Source of the DNA: Candidatus Woesearchaeota archaeon
GTDB taxonomy: Archaea > Nanobdellota > Nanobdellia > Woesearchaeales > GW2011-AR9
DNA: 54,842 nucleotides
Assembly: GCA_018664115.1 (NCBI GenBank)
Contig: JABJOX010000055.1
Span: 1 to 54,842 of the forward strand
Reading direction: 5' to 3'
Shown here: positions 11,729 through 31,920 of the stretch, piece by piece
Layout of the letters: each line of letters begins with the position of its first letter
Position numbering within the stretch: the stretch's first letter is position 1
Notes under the pieces: generated by a model
What the model was told of the DNA's origin: nothing
Database searches by the model: none
The model's input: the letters and a program-made list of their open reading frames with translations, nothing else
Made by a program: the position numbers and the translations under genes

Positions 11729-11759
11729 CAGAAGCTTCTTTGTGTCTAAGAAGCTTTTG
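11729..11759 (-). terminator. 12-bp hairpin directly downstream of 11770..12267
   Basis: CAGAAGCTTCTT-tgtgtct-AAGAAGCTTTTG (one G-U). Confidence 0.4.
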
Positions 11760-11769
11760 AGAGAACCAT

Positions 11770-12267: not shown

Positions 12268-12314
12268 TTTAATTATATCTCATTAATTAGGTATTATATA
12301 AATAACTTATGATG

Positions 12315-12330
12315 TTCTCAATCACCAAAA
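12315..12330 (+). promoter_or_regulatory. Copy 2 of 16-bp promoter motif TTCTCAATCACCAAAA
   Basis: Identical to 11686..11701 (opposite strand); upstream of radC-like gene. Confidence 0.5.
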
Positions 12331-12362
12331 TCTATTTTAATTAACGTTGTATTTAGTTCAAT

Positions 12363-13022
12363 ATGCAAATAAAAGAAATGCCTTGGTGGAACAAACCGCA
12401 TCATCGGCTGAGAAGTAAAGGAGAAAGTAAACTTAATCCAGCAGAACTATTATCTTTAATTCTTTGGAGTGGGAAGAAAGGAGAAAATGCAATTGATGTT
12501 AGTAATAGGTTGTTGAACAAGTATAGTTTTAACAAACTAACTACCTTATCTTTAACAGAGTTAGAAAAAGAAGTAGGAAAAATACCTGCAGTTAAGATTA
12601 AAGCAATGTTTGAAATCTTTAAACTAACTAATTGGGTTAAAAGAGGCGGATTTAAACCAACAATAGAATCTGCTCAAGATGTTTACAATTACTTTGTAGA
12701 TTTTTTATCTGGGAAGAAGAAAGAACATTTCTATGTATTATGTTTAGATACAAAAAATAGAATTATTGAAAGAGAAGTTTTAGTTTCAAGAGGAACTTTA
12801 AATTCATCTTTAATACATCCCAGAGAAGTGTTTAAAGAAGCTATTAAACGAAGTGCTAATGCTGTTATTTTAGTACATAACCATCCTAGTGGCGATTGTA
12901 ACCCTAGTGATGAAGATTTACGTGTAACTGAGAAGTTAGTTTCTGCTGGTGAGTTATTAGGTATTAATGTCTTAGATCATGTCATTGTTGGTGAAGGTTG
13001 CTGGAGCTGGAAGGAGAGGTAA
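12363..13022 (+). CDS. radC: RadC-like JAB/MPN domain protein
   Basis: LNPAELLSLILWSG; ALxxHNHPSGDxxPSDED JAMM motif (LVHNHPSGDCNPSDEDLRVTEKL). Confidence 0.9.
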   Translation: MQIKEMPWWNKPHHRLRSKGESKLNPAELLSLILWSGKKGENAIDVSNRLLNKYSFNKLTTLSLTELEKEVGKIPAVKIKAMFEIFKLTNWVKRGGFKPTIESAQDVYNYFVDFLSGKKKEHFYVLCLDTKNRIIEREVLVSRGTLNSSLIHPREVFKEAIKRSANAVILVHNHPSGDCNPSDEDLRVTEKLVSAGELLGINVLDHVIVGEGCWSWKER

Positions 13023-13382
13023 TTATTTTAACATATTAAGATTGATATCAGGGAGTTTAAGATTATTTTCAAAAAAAGTCCTCCAAAGGGCTTTATTTTC
13101 TTTTTTATATTTATCATAAGCAATTCTAAGAGAAAAACGTAAATCATTTGCAATCTGTTCCATCAGTAATAAATATTTATTATCTTCCCTCTCAGATTTA
13201 TTAATCGTTGGGAAAAGTAACTTAAACTCATCAAGAAAATCCATAATTGTTTTATAAGCTTGATCCGAACTTAGTGATAATTTTTGGATTTCCTTAGATT
13301 TATTTATCCATCTTTCAACAAAATTTTTAATTAAATCTAAATTATTCTCACATGTTATTATTTTATTATTAACAATAATCAT
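13023..13382 (-). CDS. Hypothetical protein, last gene of the R-M operon
   Basis: 4-nt overlap with hsdS; all-helical-looking 119 aa. Confidence 0.55.
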   Translation of the reverse strand: MIIVNNKIITCENNLDLIKNFVERWINKSKEIQKLSLSSDQAYKTIMDFLDEFKLLFPTINKSEREDNKYLLLMEQIANDLRFSLRIAYDKYKKENKALWRTFFENNLKLPDINLNMLK

Positions 13383-14698
13383 ACTTTAACCTCAAAAGCT
13401 TCTCTTAATACTGCTTCCATTAACAGATTAGCATTTTTCTGATTTTCTTTAACTTTTATTTTTAATTCATCACAGAGTTTCATTAGTTGATCAATTTTTT
13501 CAACGATACGTTTTTGTTCGTTGAGTGGAGGAATTGGAATAATTAATTTTGGCATATCTGTTAAATTAAGTTTATTAGTATGTAAACCCCCAGCTTTAAT
13601 TTCAAGATATTGTTTATACATTATTGGAGAATTCATAAGTTGTTCAAAATAATCTTTATCAATAAAATTTGTGAAAAATTTTATTAGTCCTAAGCTTACG
13701 AAAATACTAAATTCTCTATCATCCCGAATTAATGCGCATCTGCCCAGTGTACCTATCCTACAAAACAACAGATCATTTTTTTCTGGTTTACAACGTTTAA
13801 TCAATTCTTTATGTTCATTTGAAGTAATGTGTCGGCAACTATTGTATGAGATCTTACCAAAATCAATATCTTTTATTGATAAAAATGGTACTCCTTCTTC
13901 TACATAACGAGGAGTATGATGAGTTCCATCTGTAATCTTGTAACAGACATCTATTATTCTAACAAAATCCCACCCACTTGGCAATTCAAACGGAATTTCT
14001 TCTTCTTTAATTGGAGGAAGAAATTTATCTTTTCTTATTTTTTTTTCTTTAATCATTTTTTCCTTCTCTTCTTTTATTTTCTTTAAAAGAACAGAAGCAG
14101 GTTCGTCATTTGGATTTTGAGAAATAATTTTTCCTTGTACTGCTTCTTGAAAAATTGCTTGACAAAGTTTATTTACGTAATTTTCGTTCTGGGCATAGAA
14201 ATGATTCATTTCATTAATCTCTTTACTGATATTATTGATTCTATCCCTAATATTCTCTTGGGTTGGTAAATCTGGAAGATCAATCTTAAGTGGTAAAAAG
14301 TGTTTTGGTTTCAATTCTGTTTTAATTCCACCCCTTACTTGACTTTGCATTACTTCCTTGAAAGTTCGACTCTTCAAAAACCATTTAAAGTAATCAATGT
14401 CAATTTGTGATTTATCAAAACCATAAGAGGAATAATGAATTGTAGCTAAAACATCTTCATCTCCTTGATAAATAGAAACCGCGCCCTTCTCAACGTTAAT
14501 ACCAGAAATAACTAAGTCTCCTTTCTTAATTAAAATCATATTAGTATTAGTTTGTTTACCCTCCAGTAAATGTATCTTTCCTGAAAAATCTATTTTATAC
14601 AATCTTTTTAATCCTAACTCATTTGCTTCAGCTGGTTTAAAACGATTCTTTCTCTCAGTTAAGAAAGAGCTAATCTCAATATTATTCCAAGTAGACAT
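13379..14698 (-). CDS. hsdS: Type I restriction-modification specificity subunit
   Basis: LPTQENIRDRINN and IPPLNEQKRIVEKIDQLMKLCDELK conserved segments around two TRDs. Confidence 0.9.
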   Translation of the reverse strand: MSTWNNIEISSFLTERKNRFKPAEANELGLKRLYKIDFSGKIHLLEGKQTNTNMILIKKGDLVISGINVEKGAVSIYQGDEDVLATIHYSSYGFDKSQIDIDYFKWFLKSRTFKEVMQSQVRGGIKTELKPKHFLPLKIDLPDLPTQENIRDRINNISKEINEMNHFYAQNENYVNKLCQAIFQEAVQGKIISQNPNDEPASVLLKKIKEEKEKMIKEKKIRKDKFLPPIKEEEIPFELPSGWDFVRIIDVCYKITDGTHHTPRYVEEGVPFLSIKDIDFGKISYNSCRHITSNEHKELIKRCKPEKNDLLFCRIGTLGRCALIRDDREFSIFVSLGLIKFFTNFIDKDYFEQLMNSPIMYKQYLEIKAGGLHTNKLNLTDMPKLIIPIPPLNEQKRIVEKIDQLMKLCDELKIKVKENQKNANLLMEAVLREAFEVKV

Positions 14699-16126
14699 TT
14701 ACGAAGCCTCCTGAATTAATTTAAGTAATTCTTGAGTTTTATTCATGTTTTTCTCAATTTTACTAATTATTTCCTCTTTGCTTAATTGTTTTTCTTCTTC
14801 TATGACGTGTGGGTTCTTAGAATCTAAATTATAGTTCTTATTTTTTATTTCATCCATAGAAACTTTCCAGCAATATTGAGAAAATTTTACATCTTCCCTA
14901 TTATTCCACCATTCTTTCTCTAAACCAAATTCTGAATATCTAATTGGTTTGGTCTTTGTGTATTTTTTATAGCCTTCTGGTAGGGGATGTTCAAAATACC
15001 AAATATCTTTAGTTGGTTCTCCTTTTTTAAAGAATAATAAATTTGTATTTATATCAGTATAAGGACTAAAGACACCATTTGGAAGTTTAATAATAGTATG
15101 CAAATTAAAACCAGAAAGTAATTTATCTTTAATTCTAATAGCAACACCATCACCAGTCATTAAGCCTCCATCCGGAAGAACTATACCACATCTTCCTTCA
15201 TCTCTTAATAATTTCATTATCAAAACAACAAATAAATAAGCAGTTTCTTTAGTTCTATATAGAGAAGGGAAATTGAGTTCTACTCCTGGTTCAATTGCTC
15301 CGCCAAACGGAGGATTTGTAACAATAACATTAACCATATCGCTTGGACCATAACCAACTAATGGTTTCCCTAAGGAATCTTTATGTTCAACATTTGGCAC
15401 TTCAATATCATGCAATATTAAATTTGTAGTACACAGAAGATGAGGTAATGGTTTTAATTCAGAACCTAAAACATTTTTTTCAATTAGTTTATGCTCATCA
15501 ATATTTTTTACATTTTTTTTTAAATAATCTATAGAAGAAGTCAAAAATCCACCCGTCCCACAAGCAGGATCTAAAAGAAGTTCTTTTGTTTTAGGGCCTA
15601 CCATATCAACAATAAACCTAGTTACTGGCCTTGGCGTATAAAATTCCCCATAATCCCCTGCACTTTGTAACTCTTTTAATATCCCTTCATAGATATCATT
15701 AAATAAATGTCTGTCTTCACTTTTATTAAAGTCAATTTGATTTAATTTATTTATTACTTGCCTAATTAAAACACCATTTTTCATATAATTTATAGAATCT
15801 TCAAATAGTGATTTAACAATAAATCCTTTTGGGTTACCATCTGGAGTAGCACTTATTTCTTTTAATTTTTTAAACATCTCTTCAATAAATTTTAAGAGTT
15901 CTTCTCCAGTAATGCCTTCATTATTGGCTGCCCAACTCCTCCATCTGAATTTTTCTGGGATTATTGATATATATCCCTCTTCTAACCCCCATTCTTTTTC
16001 TTTGTCATCAAAAACTTTAAGAAAAATCATCCAAACTAATTGTTCAATTCTTTGAGCATCCCCGTTAATGCCTCGATCTTTTCTCATGATATCCCTTATT
16101 GATTTAATAACTCCCGATATTGCCAA
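14699..16126 (-). CDS. hsdM: Type I restriction-modification methyltransferase subunit (TTG start likely)
   Basis: DPACGTGGF and VTNPPFG N6-MTase motifs; AGGAGGTGG SD before TTG at 16126; longer ORF start lies inside hsdR. Confidence 0.9.
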   Translation of the reverse strand: MAISGVIKSIRDIMRKDRGINGDAQRIEQLVWMIFLKVFDDKEKEWGLEEGYISIIPEKFRWRSWAANNEGITGEELLKFIEEMFKKLKEISATPDGNPKGFIVKSLFEDSINYMKNGVLIRQVINKLNQIDFNKSEDRHLFNDIYEGILKELQSAGDYGEFYTPRPVTRFIVDMVGPKTKELLLDPACGTGGFLTSSIDYLKKNVKNIDEHKLIEKNVLGSELKPLPHLLCTTNLILHDIEVPNVEHKDSLGKPLVGYGPSDMVNVIVTNPPFGGAIEPGVELNFPSLYRTKETAYLFVVLIMKLLRDEGRCGIVLPDGGLMTGDGVAIRIKDKLLSGFNLHTIIKLPNGVFSPYTDINTNLLFFKKGEPTKDIWYFEHPLPEGYKKYTKTKPIRYSEFGLEKEWWNNREDVKFSQYCWKVSMDEIKNKNYNLDSKNPHVIEEEKQLSKEEIISKIEKNMNKTQELLKLIQEAS

Positions 16127-18476
16127 TCTGTCCACCTCCTGAATAAATATGATTTTCCAATTCATGAATTGCTTCAAAATATTGTTCTTTACCACCAAAG
16201 AAATTTATTATCTCAACTGGTGTTCCAAAATCACGTAAAGGATTTACTTTTAATACTTTTAAATCTTCCATATCTTCAATACCTTCATCAGTATATTTAT
16301 CTAGAAGAGCATTGATTACTGCACGAGCTTTCTCACCATATTTCGTAAAGTAATCTCTTTTCTTTACATTATCTGCTCGTTCTTTTCGTGTTAATGGTTT
16401 TTTGTCAAAAGCCACATGACAAATTAAATCAAATTCATCAAAGTCTTTCCCCACTTCATGTTTTAATTCATCAATTAATACACCCTGCTCTCGTAATTCA
16501 TTAAGAATTGCTGATTTCTTCTCGGCTGTATTCCACTTTTTTAAAAAATCATTAAGAGAACGATATTCCTCTTGTAATGTTTTTTTTGTAAAATCATTTA
16601 AAGTTTCAGTAATCAATTTTCCATCTTTATCATAATACTGAACTCTTTCATTAAGAACAGACACTTTTAGATTGTTGATATAATATTTTCTAGGTTTATC
16701 AGATGTTTCCCTGATTATGTCAACGGACGATTTAGTATCATAAATTATTTCCTCTTTTTCTACTTTTTTTGCTTCTTTTATCTTCAGCTCAGTTTCTAGT
16801 TTTGGTTCATATATTTGCACAGGTTCACCATCAAAGTCTGGATCGGCAAATAGATGAGTCACATGACGAAAGTCCATAATAGTAAAGTAATGTTTTCCAT
16901 AATCCTCCCTGATTCTTGTACCTCTTCCAATAATTTGTTTAAATTCGGTCATTGATTTAATATGACTATCAAGAACAATTAATTTACATGTTTGGGCATC
17001 TACCCCCGTAGTCATTAATTTTGAAGTAGTTGCAATAACTGGATATTTACTTGCAGGATCAATAAAATTATCTAACTGCTTTTTTCCAATATCATCATCA
17101 CCAGTTATTTTAAGAATATAATAGGGATTTTTAATCATTAAATCAGAATTTTCATTCGCAAGTGCCATTCTCATTCTTTCTGCATGGTCAATATCAACAC
17201 AAAATATAATAGATTTTGCAAATCTATCTCCACTATTCTTCAGAAATTCGCTAACTTTTTTAGCAACTAATCTTGTTCTGTCATCAATAACAATATTTCT
17301 ATCGTGATCAGTGACATTATATATCCTATCTGGAACATTATGGCCATACTTATCTTTCATTCCTTTTGTTGGCCTCCACCCCTCAACATCTTTATCAATA
17401 GAGATCCTTACAACTTTATAAGGCGCTAAAAATCCATCATCAATCCCCTGTTTTAATGAATAGGTATAAACTGGTTCACCAAAATAATCAATGTTAGAAA
17501 CTTCTTTAGTTTCTTTAGGTGTTGCAGTCATTCCAATTTGAGATGCTGTTGAAAAATATTCTAATATCTCTCGCCATGCAGAATCTTCTCTCGCACTTCC
17601 TCTATGACATTCATCAACCACAATTAAATCAAAGAAATCTCTAGAAAACTGTTTATAAATATTCTTCCAATCTTCATTTCCAGATAGACCCTGGTAAAGA
17701 GCTAAATAAACTTCATATGAAGTGTCAATATTTCTTTTTGTTACTTTGGTCATAATATCTTTAAATTTCTTAAAGTCATTATTTCTTGCTTGATCAACAA
17801 GAATGTTTCTATCTGCTAAAAATAAAATTCTTTTCTTTGCTTTTGATTTCCATAATTTATAAATAATCTGAGAAGCAACGAAAGTTTTTCCTGTTCCTGT
17901 TGCCATGACCAATAAGATTCTATCTTGTCCTTTGACAACAGCTTCAACAGCTTTATTAATAGCAACTTGTTGATAATATCGTGGCACTTTCCCTTTTTCT
18001 TCAAGATGATATTCTTGAGTGATTATTTCTTCTTCATTTTTATTAATTCCTTTCCATCTTTTGTAAGTATTCCATAATTCTATTGGACTTGGAAATCCAT
18101 CAATAGGGAGTTCTTTTTCAATCTCTTCTAATTGACCCGTCCTATCATGTAAAATAAAACCATCCCCATTAGAACTAAATACAAAAGGAATATCTAAAAT
18201 TTCTCCATATTCAATACCTTGTTGTAACCCAGAACCAATTGAATGTTTATTATCTTTAGCTTCAATAATTGCTATAGGGATATTAGGTTTGTAAAAAAGA
18301 ATATAATCAGCACGTTTTCTTTCCCCTCGCACAATCTTATCACCTTTGATAATGATTTTACCATTAGTAAAAGAATATTCCTCCCTAAAAATATCCCAAC
18401 CTGCTTGTTTTATTGCAGGAGTGATATACTTTGTACAAATGTCCCTTTCTGATAATTCTTTTTTATTCATTTTCAT
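16104..18476 (-). CDS. hsdR: Type I restriction endonuclease R subunit
   Basis: IAIIEAKDN nuclease, MATGTGKT Walker A, VVDECHRG, GMTATPK, IGRGTRI. Confidence 0.93.
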   Translation of the reverse strand: MKMNKKELSERDICTKYITPAIKQAGWDIFREEYSFTNGKIIIKGDKIVRGERKRADYILFYKPNIPIAIIEAKDNKHSIGSGLQQGIEYGEILDIPFVFSSNGDGFILHDRTGQLEEIEKELPIDGFPSPIELWNTYKRWKGINKNEEEIITQEYHLEEKGKVPRYYQQVAINKAVEAVVKGQDRILLVMATGTGKTFVASQIIYKLWKSKAKKRILFLADRNILVDQARNNDFKKFKDIMTKVTKRNIDTSYEVYLALYQGLSGNEDWKNIYKQFSRDFFDLIVVDECHRGSAREDSAWREILEYFSTASQIGMTATPKETKEVSNIDYFGEPVYTYSLKQGIDDGFLAPYKVVRISIDKDVEGWRPTKGMKDKYGHNVPDRIYNVTDHDRNIVIDDRTRLVAKKVSEFLKNSGDRFAKSIIFCVDIDHAERMRMALANENSDLMIKNPYYILKITGDDDIGKKQLDNFIDPASKYPVIATTSKLMTTGVDAQTCKLIVLDSHIKSMTEFKQIIGRGTRIREDYGKHYFTIMDFRHVTHLFADPDFDGEPVQIYEPKLETELKIKEAKKVEKEEIIYDTKSSVDIIRETSDKPRKYYINNLKVSVLNERVQYYDKDGKLITETLNDFTKKTLQEEYRSLNDFLKKWNTAEKKSAILNELREQGVLIDELKHEVGKDFDEFDLICHVAFDKKPLTRKERADNVKKRDYFTKYGEKARAVINALLDKYTDEGIEDMEDLKVLKVNPLRDFGTPVEIINFFGGKEQYFEAIHELENHIYSGGGQIGNIGSY

Positions 18477-19479
18477 TTTCCTCTAAATCATTTGTTTTCA
18501 ACCATTTGTTAAAAACTTTAGCAAATTTCTCAGCATTTTCAATTAACCAAGTAAACTGTTGTTTTTGATCATCTTCATCAGTGAAATCAGCTTTCTTTTC
18601 AATTTTTACTTGACAAAACTTATTCATCCTATACCAACCCGATTCAATACCTAAATCAGATTCAATTTCTTCTTTTCGTTCTTCTAATTTATCCATTATT
18701 GATTTAGGATCAAATTTAGATGAATTTATATAAACCCCACAAGTAATTAAATTTTTTCTTGAATCAACTGTTAACGTAACATGGGCATGAGAACTTCCTA
18801 AACTGAAATTATACCAATGTCGTGGTCGTGCTTTTCTAAAACTTAAAACGGATCCTTTTTTTGTAGCAAAATCTTGAAATTCTTTCCAATAATTTAATTG
18901 TGCTAATTTAGTTTCAGTTAATTGTTCATTCTTAACAGCTTGTTTGATTGTCTTCGCCCAGTCATTTGGACTTTCAATAATTTTAAAATGGGGTGCAGAT
19001 AATGATTCACCAATTTTCCACAGTTCTAATTCTATTGCAAAAAAATGAGTGTCTTCATCGGTTTTTCTGTTTAACCATTCAATTGCACTTTTATGTTCAT
19101 CATTAACTCTTTTACAAATCCAAATAATCATCTTTGCCTCATGGCCAGAGGCATAAGTGATTAGTTTTCCTAAATGATCATGATCTGTAGGTTCTAATTG
19201 ATTTTCGATTAAAACTACTTTTTCAGAATTTGCTTCTTTAGCTAAAATATCGGAATTATATTTTCCAACACTGGCTTCAGTTTCCACCATTTCAAGTTCG
19301 ATGTCAATAGCATCACCAAGAAGTTTTAGATTTTCTTCTTTAGCAAGCCAGGTAGTAAAATCATATGCTTCATGTTTCCATCCCTCTCTTAAATCCACTT
19401 TTGATAATTTTCCAAATTCCATTTTATAATACTCCAGTCCCCATTTTTTATAAACTTTCCTCCATTTTAAACAATCCAT
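18463..19479 (-). CDS. DUF4268-type protein (probable nuclease-fold)
   Basis: KVVLIENQLEPTDHDHLGKLITYASG and DEDTHFFAIELELWKIGES; C-term 'SKFDPKSIMDKLEERKEEIESDLG'; real start probably MEFGKLSKVDLREGW. Confidence 0.75.
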   Translation of the reverse strand: MDCLKWRKVYKKWGLEYYKMEFGKLSKVDLREGWKHEAYDFTTWLAKEENLKLLGDAIDIELEMVETEASVGKYNSDILAKEANSEKVVLIENQLEPTDHDHLGKLITYASGHEAKMIIWICKRVNDEHKSAIEWLNRKTDEDTHFFAIELELWKIGESLSAPHFKIIESPNDWAKTIKQAVKNEQLTETKLAQLNYWKEFQDFATKKGSVLSFRKARPRHWYNFSLGSSHAHVTLTVDSRKNLITCGVYINSSKFDPKSIMDKLEERKEEIESDLGIESGWYRMNKFCQVKIEKKADFTDEDDQKQQFTWLIENAEKFAKVFNKWLKTNDLEENENE

Positions 19480-20791
19480 TCAAATGTAACAGATTAAACC
19501 CTGCCCGAAAGTCTTCAGAGATTCCAAAATTATTGTCTTTGAAATCTAACCAAGTACCTTTCAAAGCTTTCTGAGTTTGGCCCATTTTCGTTAAAAGTTT
19601 ACAATAATCTTCTTCATCAATGTCTTTGATTACAAAAACATATTTCTTTGCTATTTTACCATCCATGTAACGTAAGATTCTACCATCGCGCTGAATTGAT
19701 TGCCGTTTAGTTTTAGTAAAACTTACTAAAACTCCAATAGAAGCATCAGGTACATCAAAACCCTCATCAACAATTCTAGCAGCAACCAAAATCCCATTAC
19801 TACTTTGCTTAAAACCGGCCAATTGTTGATGTTGTTCTTTTTTCTTTAATCCGCTATGAATTACAAAGATTTTCCTGTCAGGATAACTTTTTTTCAAAAC
19901 TAAGTTTATTTTTTCAACAAAACTAATTCGATCACAGAAAATAATTGTTTTTTTATCTAAACTGTTTGCTAAACCTCTGACTGCTTTTAATTTATTAAAA
20001 GCAGTAAAACGAATATTTTCCATCTTTCTAATTACGCCAATATAAGCTTTAGCTTCATCAACACCGGCTTCAGATAATTCTTTCAATTTCTTAAAAAAGT
20101 TCTTACTATTAGGATTTAAACCGTACAGTCTTTTCAATTTAGATAAAAAAACCCCTAATTTTTTCCTAAAAGTGTTATATCTTTCTGACTCATCTCCAGT
20201 TAATTCTACTCTAATCATATTAAAATCCATTGGTGCAAGTTCAACATGTTCTTTAGGTACATCAATCTTAGTCCCAAAATATTTAACAATTTCTTTAGTG
20301 CCTTCAGAATCATATTCTCTGTCTGGAGTTGCACTAATTCCCAACTTATAAGAAAATTCAATTTTCAACAAATCTTTATAAGTTTCTGCACCAACATGAT
20401 GAACTTCATCATGGATAACAAAATCAAATTTATTTTCCAATTGTTGATAAAAAAGATTTCTATCTCTGGCTGCAGAATTAATGACATAAATCATAAACTT
20501 CTTACCTGAAGAATTATCTTTTTTAGGTCCATAAAATTCGCCAATCTCTTCCTCTGAAACTCCAAGAAACTTAACCAATTCTTTCCTCCACTGTTTCAAC
20601 AAATTAATTGTTGGAACAACAATTACTGTTTTCAATCCAGGTTTTCTAAACCTCAACAAATCTATAGCCATCATCGCAAAAACAGTTTTGCCAGCAGCAG
20701 TAGGAGCTTCTACTAAAGCTGAATAATTTACATTAGAGAGCTCTTTCAAAGCCTTTTCCTGCCACAAGCGAGGTCTGAAATTAGTTTTCAT
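19448..20791 (-). CDS. SF2 DEAD/DEAH-family helicase (XPB/RAD25-like)
   Basis: APTAAGKT Walker A, HDEVHHVG, GISATPDRE, QRDGRILR. Confidence 0.88.
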   Translation of the reverse strand: MKTNFRPRLWQEKALKELSNVNYSALVEAPTAAGKTVFAMMAIDLLRFRKPGLKTVIVVPTINLLKQWRKELVKFLGVSEEEIGEFYGPKKDNSSGKKFMIYVINSAARDRNLFYQQLENKFDFVIHDEVHHVGAETYKDLLKIEFSYKLGISATPDREYDSEGTKEIVKYFGTKIDVPKEHVELAPMDFNMIRVELTGDESERYNTFRKKLGVFLSKLKRLYGLNPNSKNFFKKLKELSEAGVDEAKAYIGVIRKMENIRFTAFNKLKAVRGLANSLDKKTIIFCDRISFVEKINLVLKKSYPDRKIFVIHSGLKKKEQHQQLAGFKQSSNGILVAARIVDEGFDVPDASIGVLVSFTKTKRQSIQRDGRILRYMDGKIAKKYVFVIKDIDEEDYCKLLTKMGQTQKALKGTWLDFKDNNFGISEDFRAGFNLLHLNGLFKMEESL

Positions 20792-20793
20792 TT

Positions 20794-22173
20794 TTATATA
20801 TTCACATTAGCAGTATTAGAACCACTAGCTAATTGTTGTAAATTAGCTTTTCCCAATAAAAGCTGAATTTTATTTGCTAAATCTATTAATGAATTGCTAT
20901 AAGATGAAAGTTTCATCTCAGTCATTGAATTACTATTAATTTCATTAATAGCTTCTTCATCTGTTTTACATTCAGTAATTATTCTTGAAGTTTCTTCGAG
21001 ATAACTAAGATGGCTGCTAATCTGGCTTAAAAGTTCAGTATGTTTTGAAATTGTTGCCGGCTTTTCAGAATCCATCTTCTCAATATCACTAGCATACACA
21101 GTCTCAGAAATCAACATTTCTCCATCATTATCTAAAGATTTAACTAATTCTTTAAACTCTGCAAGATTAGGTATATTTCCTGTTTCTTTTTGTATTTCCA
21201 ATAATTTTTCAATTTTGTCCCTCTTTAAACATTTTGTAGTAAACAAAGGTCTTAATGGATTTAAGTATTCTTTGAGAGCTTTCGCTGCCGCTTTATACTT
21301 ATCTGATTGTTCCAAAAATAGATTTTTTGTAAAATTCACATCACAAAAATCAAAATTTAATTCACCACAAATTAAAGCCCTCTCTCCATGAATCCCAACT
21401 CCTATTTTATCATTTACTTTTATGATTCTCTTATTTTTATACAAATCAAAACCATATTCTTGATGTTTCTGTGACCGCTTAGTTTGTATTCTTAACACCC
21501 CAGTAATAATATCATCTTTTTCAGTTGTAATTGAAATTGGTTCTTCCATGATGTAATTATTTTTTTGAGGTATACATTTATAACCCTCTACAAATATCTC
21601 AATTTCTCCAGAATTAATAAATGCTTTATATCTTTCAGCGAGATATTCATTTAATCGGTCTGATTTCTTGCAGGTAGGAGTAAATAATAAATCGCTAATA
21701 ATTATTTCTGTTCCACTTGTAAAATCATTAGTAGAAGGATAACTTTTTATTGAAACTTCCCAATTATTTTTTTTTTCAAATTCTACTTTATCAAATTCAA
21801 CAATGTATTCTTCTTTAGAATTATTTTGTTTTGTTCTAATCGTTAGGATATTGCCTAAAGATAGACCCGCAGTTTTCATTCCTAAACCAAAAAAACCTAA
21901 TTTGCCTTTTTTACTTGATTTTCCCAAAACAATAGCCGCTCTTGCAGTTTCTTTATCCATACCTTTACCATTATCTTTAATGGATACTTCTTTACTAAAT
22001 TCATCAAGTTCTAAATCTATCTTAAGTTTCTTTCCAGGTATCCTGGCATCAATAGAATTATCCACTAATTCACTTATTGCATCTCTTAAATTATATCCTA
22101 CTTGTCCTAAATGCCCATATATTTTTGTATCTGGTACTGCATTAAATTTTTCAATTTTCATTTTTGTATTCAT
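20794..22173 (-). CDS. MORC/Hsp90-like GHKL ATPase
   Basis: AISELVDNSIDA (N box), IKDNGKGMDKETA, KGKLGFFGLGMKTAGLSLG (G boxes). Confidence 0.85.
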   Translation of the reverse strand: MNTKMKIEKFNAVPDTKIYGHLGQVGYNLRDAISELVDNSIDARIPGKKLKIDLELDEFSKEVSIKDNGKGMDKETARAAIVLGKSSKKGKLGFFGLGMKTAGLSLGNILTIRTKQNNSKEEYIVEFDKVEFEKKNNWEVSIKSYPSTNDFTSGTEIIISDLLFTPTCKKSDRLNEYLAERYKAFINSGEIEIFVEGYKCIPQKNNYIMEEPISITTEKDDIITGVLRIQTKRSQKHQEYGFDLYKNKRIIKVNDKIGVGIHGERALICGELNFDFCDVNFTKNLFLEQSDKYKAAAKALKEYLNPLRPLFTTKCLKRDKIEKLLEIQKETGNIPNLAEFKELVKSLDNDGEMLISETVYASDIEKMDSEKPATISKHTELLSQISSHLSYLEETSRIITECKTDEEAINEINSNSMTEMKLSSYSNSLIDLANKIQLLLGKANLQQLASGSNTANVNI

Positions 22174-23459: not shown

Positions 23460-24048
23460 TCACAACATTTCTCTCATAAATAACCATTGTTCTGTTTTTT
23501 CTGGATTGATTTTGTTCTTCTTAGCATATTCAATTATTCTTTTTCTTAATTCTGACTGTTGATGGTTTCTAGCAGTAGTTCGTAATGTTCTAATTGTATG
23601 AACTTTACTTTTATTGGTTGAAATTAAATGCATATTAGATATTAATTTACAGACAAGCTTACTAAAATAATCATCATTCTCAAAAAGTTTTTCTAAACGA
23701 GGAAACTTTTGTTCAATATTAACTTTCAACTTTTTTATTCGTTCATATTCCAGTTTTTCTTTTTTTTTTTTGAGATTTTAAACCAAGAATACCGTATCTA
23801 ATTAAGTATGTTTTCTCTTTTTTAATTTCTTTAAGATATTCTTCTTTTTGAATATCACCATCTGGTCTTCTATTTCCAAACCTTTTCTTTTTTCTCAGTT
23901 TATTAATTTTTTTCTGTAATTTTGAACCAAGCAGACCAAATTTGATCATATCTTTTTGCTCTAAATTCTTTTTTTTAATTTTAAGGTATTCTTCTTTAGA
24001 AAGATAACCGCCTGGTTTTCCATTCCCGCGTTTTTTCTTTTTTTTCAT
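23460..24048 (-). pseudogene. Lys-rich repeat protein split by a 1-nt shift at an A12 tract (ORFs 23743..24048 and 23460..23729)
   Basis: CAAAAAAAAAAAAG in the coding strand; removing one A joins ...LKSQKKKK-EKLEYERIKKLKVNIEQKFPRL... into one frame; the 89-aa ORF starts at TTG without a clear SD. Confidence 0.5.
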
Positions 24049-24130: not shown

Positions 24131-25561
24131 TTATTTCGTTAATTCCTTTAACCCATCAACAATCCAGATCATCCCTTCGGTATCCAGTTCGCAATACTTC
24201 AATAAATCCGCACGGACATCAGGACCATCTTCATAAGTCATCTTTAAATAAGATATCAATGCTAAACTACCATCGTTAATGTTTAAGTCAGCGTACGGAT
24301 TTTTACCAACTATAGCTGGTAAAACAGACTTTAACCCGCATTTACCTTTTTGTTTAGGATTGTAATATGAAAAAGTCTTAAATGGAACGATTAAATCTAC
24401 TACTCTACTGACAACAGATTCAACCCAATCTTTGTAAGCAGGAAAAACCAAAGCCATTTCTCTCAACATTCTAATTTCAAAAGATTGATTATAAGTGAGA
24501 ATAGTTCCTTTATCTCCCAAAACTTCTTTCAAAGTTTTAAGAAACTCTTCCCGGGGATCATCTTTAGATGAAGCTAAAAATTCATAATGCTTCCCTGAAA
24601 CATGTAAAGACCATTGAAATGATACTTGTTGGTATGGCCTTGTCCCATCCAACACAGGAACAGCAGACATAAAAGTTTCAAAATCTAAATAATTAACAGG
24701 TTCTTTCAAACTACCCAAAAATTTCTTCAATTCTTGCTTGTTAACATGAACAGTTTCATTTTTCTCACAAGCATGTTGAATACCTTGCTTATCATTAAGC
24801 AAATCTATTGGAACGTCTGTTAATAACTGCATTCCATCATCTAACCATTGAAACGCTTTCTTCTTTCTAATGTTATACAAATCAAACACAGAAGAAGATG
24901 GTAAGAAACCCCAACATTCATCTTCTAAAGGACAATCGTAAGGGTCAGCACAATCTAAAGAAATATTAACATCAGGACATAAATCACTTTTCATAACATT
25001 AATCATGTTTTCTATCCTTTCTTCAATACCAACAATAAATTCTTCAACTTGTGAGGTGATATCTTCTTTAGTAAGAATTTGGTTAGGATCAATCTCTCCA
25101 TTTTTAACAAACTTATTATTAATATGAGCAAGAAAACATTTCCTAATTTTTAATCCTGCTTTTTCATAAACATGTTTCTGAAAAGAAACATCGTGAATAT
25201 TAATGTCTTTAATGGAAGTACCACTTTTAACTTCAAGAATGTCCCATTCATCTCCTACTGGAATTAATATGTCTGCTCTTGAATATAAATTGCCCACCAT
25301 AAACGCAGGTTCAAAAAGTGGTTTACCTAAACCAAGAACTTCTTTAGTTTTTTCTAAGTTTTTCTTAAAATCTGCTTCAGGGATATCAATACCTTCAGGA
25401 TATAACTTTTTAGCTAAATGTCCAACTTTATGACCTTGGTCAAATAAGTGTTGGGTAGCTAAATCATGTTCAGGAAGCCTATCTTTCTCATGTAAAGATA
25501 CCCAGAAGTACTTTAAGCATTGTAATCCGTTCAAGTATTTAGATTTTGATAGTAGTGTCAT
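24131..25561 (-). CDS. DUF2779-type protein: Cas4-like Fe-S PD-(D/E)XK nuclease plus DEDD-like exonuclease module
   Basis: GLQCLKYFWV; WDILEVKSGTSIKD; CADPYDCPLEDECW Cys cluster; NYLDFETFMSAVPVL. Confidence 0.75.
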   Translation of the reverse strand: MTLLSKSKYLNGLQCLKYFWVSLHEKDRLPEHDLATQHLFDQGHKVGHLAKKLYPEGIDIPEADFKKNLEKTKEVLGLGKPLFEPAFMVGNLYSRADILIPVGDEWDILEVKSGTSIKDINIHDVSFQKHVYEKAGLKIRKCFLAHINNKFVKNGEIDPNQILTKEDITSQVEEFIVGIEERIENMINVMKSDLCPDVNISLDCADPYDCPLEDECWGFLPSSSVFDLYNIRKKKAFQWLDDGMQLLTDVPIDLLNDKQGIQHACEKNETVHVNKQELKKFLGSLKEPVNYLDFETFMSAVPVLDGTRPYQQVSFQWSLHVSGKHYEFLASSKDDPREEFLKTLKEVLGDKGTILTYNQSFEIRMLREMALVFPAYKDWVESVVSRVVDLIVPFKTFSYYNPKQKGKCGLKSVLPAIVGKNPYADLNINDGSLALISYLKMTYEDGPDVRADLLKYCELDTEGMIWIVDGLKELTK

Positions 25562-26178
25562 TTTATGTCTCCCCCTAATTCTTTGATTTCTTTCAAGATT
25601 TTATCTCTTTTCTCTTTAATATATTCATCAACATCACCTTTTGGAAGTTGTCCTAAGTTCATTCCCCATTGAATCATTTCTTTTTTCTTAGTTGTTCCCC
25701 AATGGTAATAATGTTCTTTTAACTCTTCAATCTTTTTCTCTTTAGCTTTTTCTTTCTTTTTCTGGACTTCTGCTTCTTTCTTTGCCAAAACTTTTTCAGT
25801 CATATATTTTTCAATTATTTCTGGAGTAAAACCGGTTGTAATATCTATCCCACTATCTTTTGCCCATTTTGAAATATCATAATTTACCGCTCCCCTTCTG
25901 TGATCTATAGCAAACCAACTTCTGCCTGTTGCTAAAGATATTTCTTCACTAGTTTTTGTAGGCAAACATAATTGATAAGTTTCATTAGCTGTCCATTCGC
26001 AAGGAAAAGTTTTCTGTTGACCTAATCTTTTTCTATTAAAAGCATTAACATTCTCAAATTCAACAACTTCAAATATCCTTCCCAGTAACTCAATTAATTT
26101 TTCTTTCTGTTCTTCTGTAACCTCAATAGGATGTTCAAAGTCAAGATGTTTTTTTGTACCCACAAGTAATCTCATCAT
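25558..26178 (-). CDS. Hypothetical protein, paralog of 26175..26561
   Basis: RSWFAIDHRRGAVNYDISKWAK; ATGA overlaps at both ends. Confidence 0.6.
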   Translation of the reverse strand: MMRLLVGTKKHLDFEHPIEVTEEQKEKLIELLGRIFEVVEFENVNAFNRKRLGQQKTFPCEWTANETYQLCLPTKTSEEISLATGRSWFAIDHRRGAVNYDISKWAKDSGIDITTGFTPEIIEKYMTEKVLAKKEAEVQKKKEKAKEKKIEELKEHYYHWGTTKKKEMIQWGMNLGQLPKGDVDEYIKEKRDKILKEIKELGGDIK

Positions 26179-26561
26179 TTTATATCCTCTAAGTATTCTT
26201 TAATTAATTCAACAGTAATAAGAGCATTCTTTTTATTTTTTTTACTTGCCCAAGCATTGATATCATAAATTCTATTTCTGGAAAGTTTAATAGCCATTGA
26301 TGAACGTTTTAGTTTCCCAGCAAGAAACTCATCACTTTCATGGCTGTGATTTATCAGGTATAAAAAATCTGAAGCCCCCCATCTTTGTCCGCCAACGATT
26401 ACTTTTCCGTTATATTCTCTATCTGGTTCAATGGTGTTTATTTTTTCAACAGAACCAAATATTTTTTCTAATCCCAAAATAAATTCATCACGATTTTTAT
26501 CTTCTAAAAAATAGGGAGGTATTTTGAAATCAACTAAATTATCTCGTGTTTGTAAGATCAT
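26175..26561 (-). CDS. Hypothetical protein, paralog of 25558..26178
   Basis: RSSMAIKLSRNRIYDINAWASKK; ATGA overlaps. Confidence 0.6.
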   Translation of the reverse strand: MILQTRDNLVDFKIPPYFLEDKNRDEFILGLEKIFGSVEKINTIEPDREYNGKVIVGGQRWGASDFLYLINHSHESDEFLAGKLKRSSMAIKLSRNRIYDINAWASKKNKKNALITVELIKEYLEDIK

Positions 26562-27007
26562 TTTTTATTTACCTCATCTTCGCTTAAATCATAATCGCAA
26601 TTTATTAATTCATGTTTTTTTCTACTTTTCCATTGTCTTATTAAAAAAGCTTCAAATAAAAGAGTATCAGCATAAGCAAACTCGTTATTGTTGAAAATAA
26701 TATAATAGAATTCCATATTTTGCATGATATAATCTTTAGTGTCAGTATACTTAATCCCCATTTTTTTTTGAATATTTCTTCTAAATGAACTATTTGAACT
26801 TTTTGGACTATTGGATAAATGTTGTTTTATTCTTTTTTTAAGTTTGTTTGCCCGACCAACATATTTGACTTTTCTATCTTCATAAAAAATATACACTCCT
26901 GGATTATCTGGTAAATTCTTAATTAAATCATTAGTTATTTTTTTTGGAACGGCTTTACATACTTTTCGGTAATTCCTACTTAATTCTTCAAATATCTTTT
27001 TCTTCAT
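26558..27007 (-). CDS. GIY-YIG nuclease-domain protein
   Basis: NPGVYIFYEDRKVKYVGRANKLKKRIKQHL. Confidence 0.85.
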   Translation of the reverse strand: MKKKIFEELSRNYRKVCKAVPKKITNDLIKNLPDNPGVYIFYEDRKVKYVGRANKLKKRIKQHLSNSPKSSNSSFRRNIQKKMGIKYTDTKDYIMQNMEFYYIIFNNNEFAYADTLLFEAFLIRQWKSRKKHELINCDYDLSEDEVNKK

Positions 27008-27282
27008 TTCAATTTCCTCCTGAGAACATCTACCAACTTCCGATCCATATAACCATAAACATCAGATATATCTAAGTTAAGTATCCGTTTTTTTAAATAT
27101 TGTGTAGGAAATTGCTTCCCAATCTCTGATCGTTGTCTTTCCTCAAAAACATAAACAATGTCAGCCCACTCTAGATCTTCTTTTTTAAGATTAACAAAAA
27201 CACCTGCATATTTACCACCAAAGATATTAGCAGCTGTCCGACTTCGATACTTTCCTAGATTACAAACAAACAATTTATTCAT
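27004..27282 (-). CDS. Low-molecular-weight protein tyrosine phosphatase-like protein
   Basis: FVCNLGKYRSRTAANIF (CX5R) and EDLEWADIVYVFEERQRSEI. Confidence 0.75.
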   Translation of the reverse strand: MNKLFVCNLGKYRSRTAANIFGGKYAGVFVNLKKEDLEWADIVYVFEERQRSEIGKQFPTQYLKKRILNLDISDVYGYMDRKLVDVLRRKLK

Positions 27283-27737
27283 TTTATAAATATACAAAAC
27301 CTCACTTTAATATTATCTGTCGTTGGACATTCAGTAGAATTAGGTACATAAGAACTACCTAAAACAATCCCAGTTAAATCAATACATGCCCAATCAAAAT
27401 AATCCATAATTAAGTGAACTAATGTCTGACGATTGTTTTTCTCAAGAACATAAGAAAAGTTTCCTAAAAATCTTTTATTTTTGATATTATTTACAAAAAA
27501 AGATTTAATTAAATCATAAATTTCTTTTTTAATTTCAATTAATGATTTACTTGGGTCTAAAGTATAATCAAGAGATATAACTTCATAATTAATGTTATTA
27601 AACAATTCTTTCGCTGAAGGGATTTCTTTATTATCAAGAAAAATGTTGTTTAACTTTTTATTTGCATCTGCCTGTTTATGAAATAAATCGTTACGAAATT
27701 CTTGAATTTCATTTAAACTAAGTCTATCTAAAATCAT
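27279..27737 (-). CDS. Hypothetical protein in CARF operon
   Basis: 152 aa; ATGA overlaps with both neighbours. Confidence 0.6.
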   Translation of the reverse strand: MILDRLSLNEIQEFRNDLFHKQADANKKLNNIFLDNKEIPSAKELFNNINYEVISLDYTLDPSKSLIEIKKEIYDLIKSFFVNNIKNKRFLGNFSYVLEKNNRQTLVHLIMDYFDWACIDLTGIVLGSSYVPNSTECPTTDNIKVRFCIFIK

Positions 27738-27934
27738 ATTATCACCCGCACTTCTTCTTTACCATAACGAACACCATAAACCGGATTGTCAGGAAGATCA
27801 TACCCAGAAATTAAAGCAATAAAATAATCCATCTCAAAACTTTTAGGAATAGTTACTAAAACTAGATTCCCCTTACCAGTAGGAGCAACTAAAACTTCAT
27901 GTCCTTCACAAAAATTAGTAATTATTTCTTCCAT
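27734..27934 (-). CDS. Hypothetical 66-aa protein in CARF operon
   Basis: ATGA overlap with 27279..27737; abuts the CARF gene. Confidence 0.55.
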   Translation of the reverse strand: MEEIITNFCEGHEVLVAPTGKGNLVLVTIPKSFEMDYFIALISGYDLPDNPVYGVRYGKEEVRVII

Positions 27935-28531
27935 TCATAACCTCGCAATCTTACCGGCATCCGTTAACTTTAAATCTTCTACTAAACCCATCTCTTCTAG
28001 TTCTTTGATGTTTCGGTACAACATTGCCCGAGAGATATCAATCTTTTCAGATAGAACCATTAAAGAAGTAAACTTTTTTTCCTCTAAATATTCAAGAACT
28101 TTTTTTTGTGATTCATTAAGTTGAAATTGTAATTTTGGTAAAAAAACTGGTAGTTCACCTTTTTCCTCAGGATAATAGAGTATTTTTTTTACTCTCGATG
28201 GCCTAGCATAAGCACCAAATAATAAACCAATAGCTTTAGTCTTCCTTCCAGAAGTAATATTTACAAAAATTTGATCATCTTTAGGTTGCATATCAATTAT
28301 TTCTACGGCTTTAGTTGCAATAGCAACAATGTCATAAACTTCTGTTTTAACAACTTTGATATCAATAACTCTACCTAAAGAGTTTTTTAACAACTCTAAA
28401 CTCTTTTCCTGCTCTTTAGAAGGGACTTTGTCAATAAGAAGATACATTCTGCTAGGACCAAGTTTATTAGCTGCCACTAATACTGGATCTACATTGTATA
28501 ATGTTGCAATTAAGATTTTGTGATTTCCCAT
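27935..28531 (-). CDS. CARF-domain winged-HTH transcriptional regulator (Csa3-like)
   Basis: N-term Rossmann-like ILIATLYNVDPVLVAANKLGPSRMYLLID, IFVNITSGRKTKAIGLLFGAYA signature, C-term wHTH KVLEYLEEKKFTSLMVLSEKIDISRAMLYRNIKELEEMGLVE. Confidence 0.75.
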   Translation of the reverse strand: MGNHKILIATLYNVDPVLVAANKLGPSRMYLLIDKVPSKEQEKSLELLKNSLGRVIDIKVVKTEVYDIVAIATKAVEIIDMQPKDDQIFVNITSGRKTKAIGLLFGAYARPSRVKKILYYPEEKGELPVFLPKLQFQLNESQKKVLEYLEEKKFTSLMVLSEKIDISRAMLYRNIKELEEMGLVEDLKLTDAGKIARL

Positions 28532-28588
28532 ATTTAAGTATTATAATGAACGCTTAGTTTATAAATATTTCTATTAAAAAGCATAAAA

Positions 28589-28606
28589 TTCTACAAATGA
28601 GTAGAA
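28589..28606. promoter_or_regulatory. Inverted repeat TTCTAC-aaatga-GTAGAA in the divergent promoter of CARF and mini-MCM operons
   Basis: Perfect 6-bp arms, 6-nt spacer, between two opposed TATA-like boxes. Confidence 0.5.
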
Positions 28607-28639: not shown

Positions 28640-28756
28640 ATGAACGACAAAAAAGCAGTCAAGATTCATGATATAAAGGAGGATGAATTTGTAGATTTTA
28701 TGAAAGACAGGAAAAACTATAAATCTTTTAAAAAAGAAAATGGACCAGATAACTGA
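28640..28756 (+). CDS. 38-aa charged small protein
   Basis: MNDKKAVKIHDIKEDEFVDFMKDRKNYKSFKKENGPDN; overlaps start of next ORF. Confidence 0.4.
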   Translation: MNDKKAVKIHDIKEDEFVDFMKDRKNYKSFKKENGPDN

Positions 28757-29042
28757 AATGTTAAAACAAAGTAAAGAAAATATTGCAATTAGATACTTAC
28801 CCAGAAAAGATTATGAAAAGCGAAAAGAAGATTTAATTCTAACTTTACAAGAAAACTTAAGTAAATTAGAAGATAAAAAACAAGAGTTCATGGAGATTGC
28901 TGTAGAATTATTAGAATCTAAAGAAAAATCTGAAAAGACTTTACAGTTTATTAAGAAAGACTTAGAAAAGATCAATACCACTATTGTGCAAACTAGAGGG
29001 TATGTTTCTCTGATCAATAATAATCCTTTCTTTAGAGATTAA
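28740..29042 (+). CDS. Coiled-coil hypothetical protein
   Basis: 100 aa, heptad-like Lys/Glu-rich. Confidence 0.55.
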   Translation: MDQITEMLKQSKENIAIRYLPRKDYEKRKEDLILTLQENLSKLEDKKQEFMEIAVELLESKEKSEKTLQFIKKDLEKINTTIVQTRGYVSLINNNPFFRD

Positions 29043-29174
29043 AAATGAAATTAAAAACTATACCACTCGCCAAGAATATCGCTTATAAGAATTTCCAGTA
29101 ACTAACATATCTATCAGAACTTCGAAATAGATATTAAAGGGTTAATTCTCAAATATAAAAAGGGGTGATTGAAT

Positions 29175-30194
29175 ATGAATACAGAAAGTTTTTTACCAAA
29201 TATTTATTTAAATAAACACATGAAACAAGCATTACTATTGCAGTTAGTTTCTAAAGAACCAATTAATATATTGTTTGTAGGCGATCCATATAGTGGAAAA
29301 ACAACGATACTACAAGAGATGGCTAAACAAAAAGAAAAAGCAACATTTTGTGATGGAATATTATTTACAAAAATACTTACACCTACAAATGTTTTAATTA
29401 AAGAGACGATGAATAACACAGAATTGCTATGTGTTGATGATGTTGATTCTTGTACCGCTGAAGATAGAATGGTTTTAAAAGATATTCTTAATTCTAAAAT
29501 GTCAGTATTAGCCGTAGCTAACCCTAAATTTGGTAGGTTTGATCCTTATGATTTAATCCGGAACCAAATTAGTCTTGATACTAAGACCATTTCTTCTTTT
29601 GACTTAATCTTTCCATTGAAAGATTTTCCGGAAGAAAAGAAAGACAGAATGTTAGCTAAATTAATGTTTAACAAATCAGAAAATAAATTGTTTGATTTAC
29701 CTAAAGGACATAAAGTAATAATTAACATAGAACTTGAAGAGAAAATGATTGATTATTATGTTAAAAATAGGGCAACACCAGTTGAAGATTTTGTTGTAAT
29801 TAAACATGTCTTGAGAACTTTTACTACTTTAATCAAACTAACTAAAGCTAGTGCAATCTTAAATGAAAGATTAACAGCAAATGAAGATGATCTCAATGTT
29901 GCTATTGAGATTATTGAATATAGTTTTAATCAGATGACAAAAGATGCCGAAAGTGGGGTTATTGATATTGATAGAATCTCTTCTGCAAATTTAACTGCTC
30001 CAAAAAGAAAAAATATTAACATAGTTTTAAAGATTATAGAAGATTTAACTGAAAGAAATGTTCTTGTAGAAGATATAATCGAAAAAGGAAAACGTTTAGG
30101 AATAGAAACAGAGATAATTGATGAAGCATTGGAACAATTAAGAAGAATGGGAGAAATATATGAACCTCACGTAGGTTTTGTAACTAAATTATAA
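29175..30194 (+). CDS. Truncated MCM-like AAA+ ATPase with C-terminal wHTH
   Basis: NIYLNKHMKQALLLQLVS..ILFVGDPYSGKTT; VANPKFGRFDPYDLIRNQISLDTKTISSFDLIF; AGGGGTGA SD. Confidence 0.8.
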   Translation: MNTESFLPNIYLNKHMKQALLLQLVSKEPINILFVGDPYSGKTTILQEMAKQKEKATFCDGILFTKILTPTNVLIKETMNNTELLCVDDVDSCTAEDRMVLKDILNSKMSVLAVANPKFGRFDPYDLIRNQISLDTKTISSFDLIFPLKDFPEEKKDRMLAKLMFNKSENKLFDLPKGHKVIINIELEEKMIDYYVKNRATPVEDFVVIKHVLRTFTTLIKLTKASAILNERLTANEDDLNVAIEIIEYSFNQMTKDAESGVIDIDRISSANLTAPKRKNINIVLKIIEDLTERNVLVEDIIEKGKRLGIETEIIDEALEQLRRMGEIYEPHVGFVTKL

Positions 30195-30624: not shown

Positions 30625-31920
30625 TTATTCTTCTACAATTATCAACGGACCAGTATATTCTGGAAGAACTATTGGTTCTATTTCTACTGCATTGGGTAAA
30701 TTCATTTTTTTAATATTATAATAAGTGCAAAATCCTGAGGTTTCTAAAGAACTCCCTATTTCAGCATTAAACTTTTCTGCCCCTAGTTTTGTGGTGAAAA
30801 ATTCGCTTTCACTTTGTCCTAAAGCAACAACGTCATGTGGATTATTAATTCCAAATAATTCAGGGCCAGTACAATCATCAGATTCATAATGAATATTTAA
30901 AGTGGACATTCCCGGCCAATCGCCACCAGTTACAACCTTACCATTAAAACGTAAATAATAAACTTTATCAATGTTCACATCATAAATTGTAACATAAGTA
31001 GAGTGACCCAGTCCAGACATTGGTTTCCATCCCAAAACATAACCAACCTCTTTACCTTCAGAATCATAAACTTTTAACGACGGACCAGTTGGTCCCATCT
31101 CGCCAGGAATTCCTTGTTCACCTTGTAAACCAGTATTTCCAGTATCCCCTTTTAGTCCGGCCAATCCAGTTAAACCTTGGATTCCTTGTTCTCCTTTTAG
31201 ACCAGGAAGTCCTTGTAAACCAGTTTCTCCCTGAATACCTTGTGGACCCATAATACCCATTAAACCTTCTAAACCCTGTTCGCCTTTCGGTCCAACTGGA
31301 CCTTGTAATCCGGCATCTCCTTTTGGACCTTGAATTCCCTGATAACCCTGTTCACCTTTCGGACCAGTCTCTCCAGCAATACCTTGAGGACCTACTTCCC
31401 CTTGCAAACCAGTATCACCTTTGTAACCCTGAATACCTTGTTCTCCTTTTTCACCAGGTATTCCTTGAGAACCAACATCACCTTTAAGTCCTTGAATTCC
31501 CTGAAATCCTTGTAATCCTGTATCCCCTTTAATCCCTTGCAAACCCATAAGTCCCATTGGACCTTGCGGACCAGTTAATCCAGTTTCTCCTTGCGAGCCA
31601 GTTTCTCCTTTTTCCCCAGGAACTCCTTGTAAACCAGTATCACCTTTGTATCCCTGAATTCCTTGTTCTCCTTCTGAACCAGGTGTTCCTTGAGGGCCAG
31701 TTTCTCCTTGCAAACCAGTATCTCCTTTAGAACCAGGTATTCCTTGTAAACCAATAGGACCTTGCTCACCAACTAAAGGTGTTTGATTTTCTAAATATTC
31801 AACACGTTGTTCTAACTGAGCAATTTTTTCATTATAATTAGTTGAAGGATTATTATCTAGATCACAAGAAGGTAATGCTGCACAAGCTGCAAATAATAAA
31901 GTAGTAAGTGTTTTTCTCAT
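30625..31920 (-). CDS. Collagen-like (Gly-X-Y) secreted lipoprotein
   Basis: Signal peptide with lipobox-like LPSC, coiled coil [16 protein letters not shown], ~76 GXY triplets, C-terminal globular domain. Confidence 0.85.
31083..31770 (-). repeat. Gly-X-Y encoding repeat tract
   Basis: Tandem 9-nt periodicity (GDTGLQG, GEQGIQG and similar). Confidence 0.85.

Follow-up and report, generated by a model that had tools for sequence, protein, structure and literature searches.

A tight operon of eight open reading frames (ORFs) occupies positions 24131–28531 on the minus strand of a 54,842-nucleotide stretch of Candidatus Woesearchaeota archaeon DNA (GenBank GCA_018664115.1, contig JABJOX010000055.1), referred to here in its full length as the window. 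Its first gene encodes a regulator that combines a CARF domain with a winged helix-turn-helix (wHTH), and this regulator, its promoter and the genes that follow it are the subject of this analysis. CARF domains are known as sensors of the cyclic oligoadenylates of type III CRISPR systems, and Woesearchaeota are small archaea that mostly lack CRISPR. The ORF list of the window reproduces the positions and packing given in the original prediction, which was made from the DNA alone. The CARF gene abuts the gene of a 66-amino-acid (aa) protein, and each later pair of neighbours overlaps by 4 nucleotides (nt), as claimed; the phosphatase-like ORF is listed from a TTG, and starting it at the in-frame ATG of position 27282 leaves 4 nt shared with the 152-aa gene.

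The regulator (27935–28531, minus strand, 198 aa) matches PF19810 and PF23400 (CARF_Card1, HTH) in Pfam and, over its full length, the PADLOC entry CARF3 PDLC01849 (2e-65). Its score of 78.6 bits against the NCBIfam model TIGR01884 (Csa3) exceeds the cut-off of 60.2, which places it in the Csa3 family. A profile search of the PDB returns 6w11, 2wte and 6wxq at about 0.003, and Foldseek, run with a modest predicted model (predicted local distance difference test score 74), gives Csa3 chains as the best four matches, then Csm6, Can2 and a ring nuclease. All four resources, Pfam, PADLOC, NCBIfam and Foldseek, agree on the CARF-wHTH identity originally proposed, and the structural comparison on which that proposal was staked did not contradict it. 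Two motifs of the ligand pocket were defined for Csa3a in Sulfolobus (PMC8699464). Motif 1, which contacts cyclic tetra-adenylate (cA4) and reads T-h-G-F-D/N-E-x4-R, is missing from the window protein, which reads T10-L-Y-N-V-D-P-V at this place; I92-T-S-G95-R96-K97 resembles motif 2 (L-x2-G-h-R), a resemblance only. The pocket-side residues R96, K97, Y119 and E123 are invariant in the CARF alignment. With motif 1 missing and these residues invariant, a conserved pocket appears to have been kept whose ligand need not be cA4. The Pfam scan found no WYL domain in the regulator.

The seven genes behind the regulator, all on the minus strand, encode what is called here its cargo. The 66-aa protein (27734–27934) has no family in Pfam, PADLOC or NCBIfam, nor does the 152-aa protein (27279–27737) in Pfam or PADLOC, its similarities being weak at most (JetB, 0.0012). 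The next protein (27004–27297), proposed to resemble low-molecular-weight protein tyrosine phosphatases (PTPs), carries a CX5R motif and resembles PDB 4egs below the threshold, so that the assignment is likely but weak; ORF relatives of it lie near CARF in loci L061 and L079. The GIY-YIG nuclease (26558–27007), UvrC/Cho-like, is confirmed by PF01541 (6e-7) and NCBIfam. The 128-aa (26175–26561) and 206-aa (25558–26178) proteins are indeed the paralogues they were taken for, with 27% identity at an E-value of 2e-5. By eye, the former is a possible SANT/HTH-like DNA-binding protein, while the latter has a long C-terminal helix, a poor predicted model and one marginal relative in 364 genomes. The PDB search gave no significant match for the 152-aa and 206-aa proteins. 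The last gene (24131–25561) encodes a DUF2779 protein (PF11074, 1e-38; also PADLOC), predicted to unite a Cas4/RecB-like PD-(D/E)XK nuclease with a DEDDy exonuclease. Its N-terminal nuclease part holds D97, E110 and K112 and four cysteines (C15, C204, C210, C216), and its C-terminal exonuclease part D293, E295, D389, Y456 and D460. The Cas4-like, cysteine and DEDD features anticipated for this protein are borne out by an alignment in which all these residues are invariant in seven related sequences, which assigns it to both classes with its activities predicted. No structured RNA was found in the window between 22 and 31 kb.

A predicted operator, TTCTACTCATTTGTAGAA (TTCTA-N8-TAGAA; 28589–28606, minus strand), precedes the CARF gene. 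It lies 24 nt from the predicted TATA box of the operon, TTTATAAA (28558–28565, minus strand), and an extra half-site TAGAA (28569–28573) sits just upstream of the latter. Upstream of CARF, the palindrome occurs exactly in 9 of 54 loci and with at most one mismatch in 26 of 54, against 0.08 and 1.5 in shuffles. Control upstream regions match at the same tolerance in 25 of 591 cases, 17 of which overlap a CARF upstream region, and independent control promoters in 8 of 560. When 5-mer dyads with spacers of 0–12 were scanned without bias, TTCTA-N8-TAGAA ranked first, with 24 of 37 loci of the main clade and a shuffled maximum of 5. The same scan finds TTCTC-N8-GAGAA in 4 of 8 loci of a sister clade, a weak signal of the sort to be expected if the CARF protein reads the operator. 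The full form, TTCTAY-N6-RTAGAA, occurs in the 1.12 Mb host genome only at 28589–28606. With the TATA box picked simply by best score, palindrome-to-TATA distances cluster at 4, 14, 22–26 and 42–43 nt, roughly whole helical turns, and the window falls inside the common class of 22–26 nt. With an operator of its own, the CARF protein resembles a transcription factor more than an effector.

The arrangement recurs in relatives with different cargo. Of 382 genomes of the phylum, 30 hold a CARF homologue, as do 43 of 362 in the order, and 59 loci were read from Woesearchaeota and relatives by simple ORF calling on metagenome-assembled genomes (MAGs); these loci are phylogenetically related yet are treated as independent in the statistics. 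The next gene lies on the CARF strand in 52 of 55 loci, and its gap is at most 10 bp in 43 of 55, compared with 33% of other adjacent pairs. Pfam families of defence type, a functional label of this analysis, occur in 24 of 40 scanned cargo proteins and in none of 19 upstream neighbours. By Pfam, the cargo includes GmrSD, PDDEXK_1, Eco57I, NucS/YhcG and YhcG, UvrD-PDDEXK, RmuC, ORF6N, Bro-N, RhuM, a T5orf172-ResIII helicase, Schlafen AlbA_2, a Schlafen helicase, MNT-HepT, a dual-specificity phosphatase, RNase H/Cas4, a PLD-helicase and N4/N6 methylase; type I HsdR and, more broadly, type I and II restriction-modification (R-M) are also among the cargo kinds. The commonest is a RecB/Cas4-like nuclease (PDDEXK_1 in 15 loci, DUF2779 in 7), always on the CARF strand. 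All members of the window family (the window, L034, L065, L066 and L075) keep DUF2779, but the genes separating it from CARF are different each time. Of the gene-order conservation looked for in relatives, the pairing of CARF with DUF2779 thus holds in seven loci and the middle genes do not; since these differ in every relative, a conserved eight-gene system was rejected. In the loci of relatives, the CARF regulator is the first gene of many different defence operons. No match to it was found among 50,697 phage records. Bro-N (L040, L047, L050, L058, L063, L069, L073, L077, L081 and L083) and, at other loci, ORF6N and RhuM are usually seen as phage antirepressor-like and are among the commonest genes directly behind CARF, which suggests an immune role or a phage origin for this cargo.

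Close sisters in the CARF tree carry different cargo (L044/L045, L080/L081 and the window/L034/L065/L066). Similarity at the DNA level extends in such sisters from part of the promoter through the CARF gene and breaks off within a few bases of the stop codon or right at it, running to the last base of the CARF gene from −66 in L044/L045 and from −74 in L034/L065. Near this stop lies GCGAGG (27938–27943, minus strand), whose codons are by far the most constrained of the gene: the final codons are GCG in 34 of 37 and AGG in 33 of 35 sequences, with codon entropies of 0.20 and 0.12, the mean being 0.87. About five bases after GCGAGG comes an ATG overlapping the stop. This layout fits a predicted ribosome-binding site for the cargo, and the hexamer was not adopted as a pure recombination site. 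Six loci (L081, L045, L078, L080, L042 and L070) repeat the CARF 3' end once more in the same direction; this copy is 26–68 bp long and lies beyond the first cargo unit, 0.7–1.1 kb downstream. From seven other segments of the CARF gene no extra copies were obtained. In L080 the Bro-N gene directly follows CARF, and in L081 extra genes intervene. Among these signs, only the longer 3'-end copies, and not GCGAGG, would point to exchange. The copies share a constant 3' edge (stop codon and ribosome-binding site) and vary at the 5' edge, a pattern for which decaying duplicates of CARF-cargo units, or homologous recombination, account at least as well as site-specific integration. That the CARF 3' end is an active exchange site, with immune cassettes added directly behind the regulator, is a tentative proposal that we rate as rather unlikely. 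If it were true, each cassette would gain operator control and a ready ribosome-binding site, and the locus would serve DPANN archaea as a platform for capturing defence genes under CARF control, its switch responding to an infection signal that CRISPR does not make.

A maker of the usual CARF signal was sought in the genomes. None of the 46 CARF genomes, 22 of which are at least 90% complete, has a Cas10 match above the cut-off, and the same search is positive in five control genomes. Type III signalling, with Cas10 as the cyclic oligoadenylate maker, is thus not in evidence. The absence of Cas10 and Cas1 noted in the 55 kb of the window extends to the host assembly (G000; 1.12 Mb in 68 contigs, 87% complete), where neither was found and the CRISPR context of Csa3 is accordingly missing. 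By sequence, the regulator is a Csa3-family protein outside that context. Cas1 exceeds its cut-off in 4 of 46 CARF genomes; in two of these a CARF lies no more than about 10 kb away. In a Woesearchaeota-relative genome, L071 holds a type V-A CRISPR locus (10064–15600; Cas12a, Cas1, Cas2-like) downstream of a CARF-UvrD operon. L069 (1–3317, minus strand) holds Cas1 about 8 kb from CARF, with Cas2-like, Cas4-like and Cas12/TnpB-like ORFs recognized by eye. A CD-NTase, raised in the original prediction as a possible host gene, did not materialize: the only SMODS match in the host is the CCA nucleotidyltransferase TIGR03671, and CD-NTase signalling of the CBASS kind (cyclic oligonucleotide-based antiphage signalling system) was rejected. 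Half of the genomes, like Methanocaldococcus and Sulfolobus, contain proteins of about 400–450 aa that match the CD-NTase model; a stronger match of 323 aa in genome G299 may be a true CD-NTase. No mCpol was found in 34 genomes.

Two divergent genes on the plus strand flank the operon, known here by association only. A 100-aa coiled-coil-like protein (28740–29042) shares the CARF intergenic region and has relatives placed divergently beside CARF in L066 and L075; an MCM-like AAA+ ATPase (29169–30194), possibly a second arm of the system, follows. A divergent double-AAA+ ATPase, often with a small intervening gene, stands beside CARF on its upstream side in 12 loci (L036, L037, L046, L048, L068, L069, L071, L073, L074, L079, L082 and L084). 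The double-AAA+ gene is rare (12 of 356 genomes, 7 of these with CARF), and it may form a second arm of the system. A shared chromosomal slot beside this gene was rejected as a general explanation, the gene itself being rare and CARF-associated. Elsewhere in the window, a very lysine-rich 101-aa ORF, composed of two copies of an 88-nt repeat that are 72% identical, lies directly behind the operon (23743–24048, minus strand), and a 431-aa collagen-like protein with GPQG/GEQG repeats, probably secreted, is encoded at 30625–31920 (minus strand). A second defence module at 13023–22173 (minus strand) has no CARF operator; it comprises a type I R-M operon (HsdR 16104–18476, HsdM 14699–16198, HsdS 13379–14698), an HSP90/MORC-like HATPase, a ResIII helicase and a DUF4268 protein.

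The Csa3 identity by score and fold, the same-strand operons led by CARF, their defence cargo, the enrichment, genomic uniqueness and spacing of the operator, the absence of Cas10 and mCpol, the CCA identity of the host's CD-NTase-like match, the invariant pocket-side residues, the differing cargo of sisters and their loss of homology at the CARF stop together argue for a portable switch: a self-regulated, ligand-gated CARF transcription regulator for exchangeable immune cargo, here mostly nucleases, that acts independently of type III CRISPR. We consider this reading probable. The CARF-wHTH protein would bind the palindrome before its own gene, beside the TATA box, and thereby control how its own gene and the rest of the co-translated operon are transcribed. 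The CARF pocket would sense a negatively charged ligand linked to infection and not made by a host Cas10, candidates being a cyclic or linear oligonucleotide, a 2',3'-cyclic phosphate or a modified nucleotide. Ligand binding would change operon output and so deliver whichever cargo lies behind CARF: in the window, the GIY-YIG nuclease, the PTP-like protein, the two paralogues and a Cas4-like/DEDDy nuclease presumed to break down invader DNA. Cargo would be swapped at the CARF stop behind a retained regulator and promoter, the last CARF codons serving as the ribosome-binding site of the next gene. Activation is somewhat more likely than repression, as upstream, phased operators favour the former and TATA-abutting operators allow the latter. 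The original prediction had envisaged a defence module responsive to a nucleotide signal, under CRISPR control in trans or independent of it. A CARF-led defence operon is what was found, with the independent version favoured by the Cas10 and Cas1 counts; the CARF protein looks like a regulator, however, and the eight-gene order is not conserved.

Family, operon, predicted operator, absence of Cas10, cargo variability and the junction at the stop codon are supported by direct computation. From these data we infer the CARF protein as the reader of the operator, its ligand, the direction of regulation, the way in which cargo is exchanged and the function against invaders. Several points weigh against the switch. 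The claims about regulator, operator, ligand and immunity are drawn from sequence, and four of the eight window proteins (66, 152, 128 and 206 aa) have no family. A recognisable operator is missing in about half of the loci, and several cargo types (Bro-N, ORF6N and RhuM) are unproven as defence genes. Given the incompleteness of MAGs, failure to find Cas10 in any single genome is no proof. Finally, purified Sulfolobus Csa3a bound DNA non-specifically in vitro at its analogous palindrome (PMC8699464), which by analogy is a warning for the operator predicted here.

The regulator might instead be an ordinary Csa3, an accessory to a type I or III CRISPR system lost by binning or assembly, which would receive cA4 from Cas10 in trans. 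The TIGR01884 score and the Csa3 folds at the top of the Foldseek matches speak for this, as do Cas1 in four genomes and the Cas12a-Cas1 locus downstream of one CARF; the lack of Cas10 above cut-off in genomes searched alongside five positive controls, the missing motif 1 and a mostly non-CRISPR cargo make it improbable. Alternatively, the CARF gene might be set by chance amid unrelated island genes, with no regulatory link to them. In favour of this, any island gathers and turns over defence genes, the window has a type I R-M operon nearby, and the full gene order is not conserved. Strand and spacing are, however, far off the baseline, the upstream neighbours of the same CARFs include no defence genes, and codon-level constraint within CARF falls on the ribosome-binding site of the cargo; we hold such a chance neighbourhood very improbable.

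The CARF 3' end could also be an active, site-specific, integron-like insertion site in a locus that is primarily a gene-capture platform. The six loci with 3'-end copies behind the first cargo unit, the lack of copies of seven other segments and the extra genes between CARF and Bro-N in L081 as compared with L080 are in keeping with this. A site-specific system would, however, give copies of fixed length, whereas the 5' edge here varies over 26–68 bp; the ribosome-binding site accounts for the constancy of the 3' edge, decaying duplicated units or homologous recombination would look alike, and no recombinase was identified, no search having been aimed at recombinases. An insertion site of this kind is possible, if on the unlikely side. 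Tight packing with 4-nt overlaps across eight nuclease-rich genes would also suit a self-contained effector in which CARF is the allosteric subunit of a nuclease complex and not a transcription factor. The wHTH domain, the dedicated predicted operator and a different gene set in every relative leave little room for such a complex, to which we give hardly any credence.

The CARF family itself is already known, and so are bacterial regulators common to diverse defence operons. A survey of 2014 counted 9 of 145 CARF-bearing genomes that had neither cas1 nor cas10 (PMC4012209). No description of a CARF regulator heading diverse defence operons was found in the literature searched, which did not cover the main CARF survey of 2020 (doi 10.1093/nar/gkaa635), possibly a source that mentions part of this. 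As far as searched, the new elements would be a CARF-type regulator in such a role in Cas10-less archaea, its predicted operator and cargo exchange at the stop codon. A CARF-wHTH family in Cas10-less genomes is predicted to control many kinds of defence operon, and two questions become testable: which non-CRISPR ligand is read by a CARF, and by what means archaea of very small genome size control and exchange their immune genes.

A comparison with known systems sets these features in context. PADLOC already lists such sequences under CARF (CARF3 PDLC01849), in an entry that names the domain and not the organisation or role described here. Csa3 (Csa3a of Sulfolobales; TIGR01884) shares the CARF and wHTH architecture, the fold and a score above the cut-off, along with an N8 palindrome on the 18-bp scale upstream of the B recognition element and TATA box, in Sulfolobus TCCC-N8-GGGA at 12 bp upstream (PMC8699464). 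In contrast, the window family has a different half-site, no type I-A/III CRISPR context, no Cas10 and no cA4-contact motif 1, and it heads diverse non-CRISPR defence operons. Integrons likewise place variable cargo behind a fixed promoter end and add extra genes at the proximal position, as L081 does relative to L080, but here the repeat is the 3' end of a regulator gene with a variable 5' edge; no integrase or attC is shown, integrase genes not having been searched. The bacterial CapK/CapS and RptR (PMC13373217, PMC12255303) are reported to be shared regulators upstream of varied immune or R-M cargo as well, yet appear to be unrelated proteins. BrxR and CapW (PMC9122601, PMC9122588) have a similar arrangement: both couple a ligand domain to a wHTH, act as first gene of many defence systems and have their own operator and no single effector. 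They are repressors with a WYL domain, whereas the regulator described here is archaeal, carries CARF and has its cargo junction at its own stop codon. In role it would correspond, among archaea, to BrxR and CapW, without belonging to their family.

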